This document shows, in pieces, positions 39,339 to 39,768 of a stretch of DNA of 64,000 nt. The notes beneath the pieces are model-generated. The model worked only from the letters and a program-made list of their open reading frames with translations. It did not search any database and was not told where the DNA came from. A program made the position numbers and the translations under genes. The stretch covers positions 4,768,001-4,832,000 of the forward strand of contig NZ_CP136520.1 of the NCBI RefSeq assembly GCF_032813545.1. Direction: 5' to 3'. Every line of letters starts with the position of its first letter. Position 1 is the stretch's first letter. Origin of the DNA: Nodosilinea sp. E11. GTDB taxonomy: Bacteria; Cyanobacteriota; Cyanobacteriia; Phormidesmidales; Phormidesmidaceae.

Positions 39339-39374
39339 CGGGATTCTGTTTTTGGTAAGATGCTGTCAGTTCTA

Positions 39375-39459
39375 GGGGACTTAGCTCAGTTGGTAGAGCG
39401 CTGCGTTCCCGCAGGGTGGCCGAAGGCCAATCGCATCGTAACGGTGCATCGCACAACAC
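39375..39459 (+). repeat. tRNA-Ala 5'-half unit 1 with 42-bp insert (85 bp)
   Basis: Bases 1-31 are the 5' part of tRNA-Ala (acceptor, D arm and the 5' anticodon stem GCGCTGCG), with one change at position 6 (C for A). A 42-bp insert follows, made of three tight hairpins: CCC-GCA-GGG, TGGCC-GAA-GGCCA and GCA-type CG-TAA-CG. The next seven bases (ATCGCAC) are the tRNA anticodon loop, then AACAC closes the unit. The 3' half of the tRNA is absent. The second unit follows directly. Confidence 0.85.
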
Positions 39460-39544
39460 GGGGAATTAGCTCAGTTGGTAGAGCGCTGCGTTCCCGCAGG
39501 GTGGCCGAAGGCCAATCGCACCGTAACGGTGCATCGCACAACAC
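39460..39544 (+). repeat. tRNA-Ala 5'-half unit 2 with 42-bp insert (85 bp)
   Basis: A second tandem unit with the same layout as the first: 31 tRNA bases identical to the functional gene, the 42-bp triple-hairpin insert (here with the third hairpin perfect, GCACCG-TAA-CGGTGC), the anticodon loop ATCGCAC, and AACAC. It differs from unit 1 at two sites I can see. The intact tRNA begins at the next base. In the intact gene the insertion point is inside a HIP1 octamer (GCGATCGC). Confidence 0.87.
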
Positions 39545-39617
39545 GGGGAATTAGCTCAGTTGGTAGAGCGCTGCGATCGCACCGCAGAGGTCAGGAGTTC
39601 GAATCTCCTATTCTCCA
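39545..39617 (+). tRNA. tRNA-Ala (anticodon CGC)
   Basis: A complete 73-nt tRNA. Acceptor GGGGAAT pairs with ATTCTCC (one G-U), the D stem is GCTC/GAGC, the anticodon stem CTGCG/CGCAG carries the loop ATCGCAC with anticodon CGC (reads GCG), and the T arm is AGGAG-TTCGAAT-CTCCT. The discriminator is A; CCA is not encoded. The anticodon arm contains a HIP1 site, GCGATCGC. Two interrupted 5' halves lie immediately upstream, so any transcript starting before 39375 would carry three D arms in a row. Confidence 0.95.
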
Positions 39618-39768
39618 TTCTCTTAAACCCATATAGGTCAAGGGTTATATCGCTTATCAATAAGGTGATTTAGATCAGTGTCGCTTGCCTGGCGCTAGGA
39701 GTGGTTACGCCAGTTTGGCCCTACAGTGGATTCGTCGTTAGGATAGTGAAACCGCTCAGGACAATGCG

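Follow-up and report, generated by a model that had tools for sequence, protein, structure and literature searches.

What are the two half-tRNA sequences that stand directly in front of an intact tRNA-Ala(CGC) gene in the 64-kb window (the whole stretch of DNA that was analysed), and how did a hairpin sequence come to lie inside each of them? The locus comprises the following features, all on the forward strand.

39356..39361, + strand: -10-like box TAAGAT, 13 nt 5' of unit 1, a putative promoter element
39375..39459, + strand: unit 1 (85 nt), consisting of tRNA nt 1-31 with one change, an SDR5-like insert, ATCGCATCG and a palindromic tail
39406..39429, + strand: SDR5-like 24-nt double hairpin of unit 1, between HIP1 bases 3 and 4
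39433..39447, + strand: tail hairpin of unit 1, GCATCG-TAA-CGGTGC, its first half presumably tRNA-derived
39460..39544, + strand: unit 2 (85 nt), its 5' half identical to the tRNA
39491..39514, + strand: SDR5-like 24-nt double hairpin of unit 2
39518..39532, + strand: tail hairpin of unit 2, GCACCG-TAA-CGGTGC
39545..39617, + strand: intact tRNA-Ala(CGC) (ARAGORN; Rfam RF00005, 67.8 bits)
39573..39580, + strand: unbroken HIP1 octamer GCGATCGC spanning anticodon stem and loop, starting at tRNA position 29; presumed target site
39618..39700, + strand: integrase-type flank, resembling in alignments the region 5' of a tyrosine-integrase gene in some relatives; the end of the similarity is approximate

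The two units are 98% identical, abut each other and lie directly 5' of the intact gene. The 23-nt core of their insert has two matches in the window versus 0.00 expected, and a chance origin of the repeat is excluded. ARAGORN and Rfam recognised only 39545-39617 as a tRNA, the units having no complete cloverleaf, and a genome-wide search found no further unit copy in the rest of the 6.1-Mb genome. The sequence-only reading from which we started had described two 85-bp units and an intact tRNA at these positions, each unit headed by 31 tRNA nucleotides and lacking the tRNA 3' half, with the break at the border of anticodon stem and loop inside the HIP1 octamer, and this layout was confirmed. 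Further downstream, a DUF1295 protein is encoded whose best matches are in Nodosilinea, Leptolyngbya and Phormidium; using its gene as a synteny marker was given up, as none of the 13 loci inspected with ARAGORN (out of 80 DUF1295 loci) carried a tRNA.

Other genomes had been named as the place to look for the unit, and absence from all relatives as a finding that would count against it; we ran this search and found relatives with their own versions. A query of unit plus tRNA matched 44 of 63 family genomes (E <= 1e-12), and leaving out one that holds a 3' fragment only (G025) gives 43 genomes with the locus, which were classified by inspection. One to eight complete upstream units are present at 21 of these 43 loci (G000, G001, G003, G005, G007, G010, G013, G015, G016, G020, G022, G023, G024, G026, G057, G059, G033, G073, G074, G075 and G064; the contig end falls before the tRNA in G013 and within it in G005). 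A contig end cuts the unit at one locus (G058), remnants alone are seen at three (G008, G009, G011), and no unit was recognised at the remaining 18 inspected (G002, G004, G006, G012, G014, G017, G018, G019, G021, G028, G029, G031, G032, G062, G065, G076, G084 and G085). In the last two of these the tRNA has no HIP1 word, and likewise no unit was seen. The units occur in five labelled genera (g1, g2, g8, g9, g34), and with 21 of 43 family genomes carrying their own version, an assembly artefact is very unlikely. The other 19 of the 63 genomes gave no match to the query at E <= 1e-12 (G027, G030, G060, G061, G063, G066-G072 and G077-G083), and tRNA-Ala(CGC) may be dispensable and absent, or diverged, in them.

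The comparison with relatives also changed our view of what was inserted. The sequence-only reading had seen a 42-bp insert of three hairpins, followed by ATCGCAC as the anticodon loop. We searched a class sample of 388 genomes with a strict pattern, in which the tRNA up to nt 31 is separated by 15-44 nt from the anticodon loop, stem and variable loop, and seven genomes matched (G001, G018, G058, G075, G076, G033 and G185, the last from another family). The matches are upstream units in G033 and copies 3' of the tRNA in the other six genomes. All these copies have a 24-nt insert at nt 31, after which the tRNA sequence is otherwise continuous. Because the relatives' 24-nt inserts lie within continuous tRNA, we read the window insert as 24 nt too, so that ATCGCACCG most plausibly belongs to the tRNA, from which part of the third hairpin would derive. 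The window units then have the form GCG, TTCCCGCAGGGTGGCCGAAGGCCA, ATCGC, with the 24 nt placed between bases 3 and 4 of the octamer and made up of TTCCCGCAGGG and TGGCCGAAGGCCA, two hairpins with 3-nt loops. On this 24-nt reading the terminal ATCGCAC would not be the anticodon loop but a further heptamer resembling it within the tail; this heptamer is missing from the 77-bp units of four relatives (G015, G020, G023, G005).

An insert of this kind invites comparison with the small dispersed repeats (SDRs) of cyanobacteria, families whose hairpin structure is supported by paired changes, and with HIP1, a favoured DNA word of these bacteria. SDR5 elements are reportedly about 21-27 nt long (Elhai and colleagues, 2008), and our insert measures 24 nt at nt 31/32 in all 24 scored distinct units, a set taken from 28 by omitting four with indels. 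A published account places SDR5 after the third base of HIP1 and before the fourth (PMC4390886). The same arrangement, 24 nt between GCG and ATCGC, is found in the window units and in dispersed copies, including elements outside tRNAs that interrupt HIP1 at the same point. A loose pattern, with GCG and ATCGC fixed along with a few inner letters and with tRNA copies counted in, gave 232 matches with at most one mismatch versus 1 for the reversed control in 26 genus genomes, 23 of which had at least one; it also occurred at least once in 14 of 30 chosen cyanobacterial genomes outside the family. Copies are few in the window genome itself, with five exact matches, two of them the units, and 12 matches versus 1 for the control at up to two mismatches. 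Dispersed elements mostly have other stems than the window units, and no other copy with the unit stems was found in the window genome at up to one mismatch. Paired changes were evident as well: among 27 distinct dispersed copies (loci sampled), standard pairs made up 98.1% at the four unconstrained stem positions, versus a mean of 56.4% and a maximum of 69.4% when partners were shuffled 1000 times. The insert thus shares with SDR5, as that repeat has been described, its size class, HIP1 position, hairpins with paired changes and dispersed copies. It differs in lying within tRNA gene copies and in having been amplified with a tRNA half as a tandem unit.

Two observations were made alongside this survey. 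At L118, L121, L123 and L127 an SDR5-like element with small changes occupies what appears to be the same intergenic place, after a stem formed by CCGGCGGA and TCCGCCGGG. Another hairpin repeat, TTCCCGTAGGGTGGGCACTGCCCA, is present in four copies at 37-bp spacing in G003 (contig C251, 1863-1997), and near-identical single copies of this type occur in several other genus genomes.

The units vary in number, length and state of preservation. The 33 units compared, from 20 genomes, comprise 28 distinct sequences of 75 to 104 nt; G064, outside this set, has a longer unit with extra letters in the insert. Pairing is complete in all stems of 16 of the 24 scored units, and one pair is broken in the other eight. 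The ATCGC flank is intact in 14 of the 24, the other 10 differing in its first base, and the left GCG flank is altered in units of G024, G057 and G073. Decay is seen in unit 1 of G007 (nine mismatches in its tRNA half, none in unit 2), in G024 and G022, and at the three remnant loci. G033 has eight units of 104 bp, all with no change in the tRNA half; the three units of G023 have 0, 1 and 0 changes, and in G000 and G015 the unit next to the tRNA matches it over the half and the promoter-side unit has one change each. Among 19 genomes, the tRNA-adjacent unit equals the tRNA throughout the 31 nt in 10 and departs from it in nine. Units had on average 0.97 mismatches to their own tRNA and 1.56 to others (31 units), a comparison that involves only four tRNA types; with so few types and the even split between genomes, likeness to the tRNA is inseparable from recent origin, and a homogenisation of units with the tRNA is weakly supported. 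Inserts with CCC..GGG stems and with GGC..GCC stems are mixed among the relatives, which indicates that insertion recurred or that inserts were swapped. Both types are also mixed in a tree built from the upstream ORF at 16 loci, which has weak support.

Where the units stand relative to possible promoters bears on whether they reach RNA. Of 20 unit loci (G064 left out), 19 have a TANNAT box 10-18 nt 5' of the first copy, and no such box was found 6-18 nt 5' of the tRNA itself in 19 unit loci. Since the box precedes the first copy and not the tRNA, the units are probably part of the transcribed 5' leader of the tRNA. At unit-less loci the box lies 12-14 nt 5' of the tRNA in 10 of 12. The boxless exception, G059, has a stretch resembling a unit end 5' of the first copy, and in G033 a TAAAAT ends 2 nt 5' of the tRNA, outside the scanned range. 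A scan for consensus sigma-70 promoters and terminators returned no -35/-10 pair and nothing at its thresholds.

Longer copies are found on the other side of the gene in some relatives; like the -10-like box and the integrase-type flank, they go beyond what the sequence-only reading had noted. Copies 3' of the tRNA with the insert at 31/32 are present in G001, G026, G032, G075 and G076 (two each) and in G018, G058, G073 and G185 (one each), with a partial one in G003. Most carry a second insert in the T-loop, which is absent in G058 and partly shortened in the second copy of G075. One type of T-loop insert is itself dispersed, with 45 matches in 19 of 63 genomes, three of them tRNA copies, and none for the reversed control. 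The downstream copies keep the tRNA 3' end, except for G073 and the second copy of G076, and in several the 5' end is altered. They would thereby resemble a stage before the 3' half was lost.

Could the units be functional leader RNAs? In such a scheme, every tRNA-Ala(CGC) transcript would include the units, and RNase P would release from it RNAs made of a tRNA half plus hairpins, which would tune tRNA processing or act in trans. The sequence-only reading had likewise thought of tRNA-half RNAs or an RNase P decoy; the position of the units suggests transcription, but such a product or role would be hypothetical. Their position behind a -10-like box, the fully paired stems in two thirds of the scored units and the presence of complete units in nearly half of the family genomes with the locus agree with a function; the 18 loci without a unit, the decayed units and the remnants argue against one, and stem covariation is also a property of the dispersed family. 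We had also considered a strong RNA fold as a sign of function and rejected it, as the fold energies are not unusual (z -0.98 for unit 1 and -1.72 for the leader with the tRNA). A functional leader RNA is, on balance, unlikely. The more specific idea that the array is a maintained leader cassette, yielding from each tRNA-Ala(CGC) transcript one or more half-tRNA/double-hairpin RNAs in fixed ratio to the tRNA and setting tRNA output through unit number (0 to 8), appears quite unlikely to us; if true, a mobile mini-repeat would be part of a tRNA operon.

Elements that integrate at this tRNA offer another possible source, with the units and downstream copies as side products or decoys of tyrosine integrases or of type V-K CRISPR-associated transposons (CASTs). 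There are possible traces of such elements: a tyrosine-integrase gene (PF00589) lies 3' of the tRNA in L097 and others, the window stretch 39618-39700 is likely what is left of an integrated element that has since been lost, and two loci have a guide-like spacer for tRNA nt 22-38. Moreover, the 42 bp of tRNA-Ala(CGC) nt 32-73 recur alone in L132, L133, L134 and L255, probably as far attachment sites of elements that cross over at the anticodon loop. The integrase-type flank was found at 8 of 21 unit loci versus 1 of 16 unit-less loci, for a pattern chosen afterwards and with two loci per group having almost no downstream sequence. CAST-like ends adjoin 2 of 21 unit loci versus 5 of 16 unit-less ones, numbers too few to show protection. 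Integration would copy the 3' part of the tRNA, however, and the units copy the 5' half; moreover, dispersed copies have the insert at the HIP1 position as well. We have therefore set site-specific integration aside as the source of the units and regard the by-product explanation as decidedly unlikely. A route through RNA, in which a 5' tRNA half was fused with a hairpin RNA and the chimera reverse-transcribed into DNA, is highly improbable. The join does lie at the anticodon loop, the point of cleavage that yields tRNA halves, and RNA intermediates have reportedly been suggested for SDRs (Elhai and colleagues, 2008), but dispersed elements sit at the same HIP1 point outside tRNAs. No added CCA follows the final tRNA base of the downstream copies in G001, G026 and G032, which also led us to reject back-copying of the mature tRNA. 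A self-splicing intron was rejected as well, there being no Rfam intron match at the gathering score and no 3' exon in the units.

The explanation that we favour, with a probability of about 0.7, is that the units are truncated tandem copies of tRNA-Ala(CGC) that were hit by SDR5-like elements and then multiplied or deleted by recombination. A tandem duplication of the tRNA gene would have come first. The HIP1 octamer in the anticodon region would make the gene a target for an SDR5-like element, and a 24-nt double hairpin would have entered the extra copy between HIP1 bases 3 and 4, i.e. between tRNA nt 31 and 32, where it is found today. The T-arm and the 3' strand of the acceptor stem would subsequently have been lost from the copy, leaving the palindromic tail seen in the units; the downstream copies that still bear the 3' half look like an earlier point on this path. 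Finally, the 31-bp 5' half of the tRNA would serve as a direct repeat through which recombination multiplies units or deletes them seamlessly, and relatives indeed have between 0 and 8 copies. Transcription probably takes the units along as 5' leader, which RNase P would then remove, and most likely the units are tolerated rather than used. Against this explanation stand the altered HIP1 flanks in part of the relatives' units, the broken stem pair in 8 of 24, the failure to find a further same-stem copy in the window genome at up to one mismatch and the persistence of units over five genera, which is long for junk. The sequence-only reading had suggested a fossil of insertion with subsequent tandem duplication, and this is upheld in essence, given an SDR5-like insert in HIP1 and one to eight units. 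We regard the locus as an array of tRNA pseudogenes within a probable tRNA leader, moulded by small mobile repeats; the setting is new, the kind of element known.

As in other tRNA pseudogenes and tandem tRNA duplications, partial copies stand beside a functional gene; unlike them, these copies are truncated to the 5' half, reach up to eight units between a promoter-like box and the gene and are interrupted at one and the same point, nt 31/32. Group I introns occur in the anticodon loops of cyanobacterial tRNAs and share the region of insertion, but here the insert has 24 nt, has no match to an Rfam intron and is followed by a separate intact gene. Among open-licence papers, judged by title and the start of the abstract, we found no earlier description of a half-tRNA array.

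Our findings suggest that a 24-bp mobile repeat has entered copies of one tRNA gene repeatedly because the tRNA carries the target word of the element, and that a tRNA 5' half can act as the repeat in an array that grows and collapses. Furthermore, they describe SDR5-like elements in a Nodosilinea-like group together with a structural test. The relatives provide a natural series, with 0 to 8 units, several insert types and remnants, in which the movement of SDRs can be studied, and the same series will be useful for understanding how RNase P copes with leaders filled with half-tRNAs.
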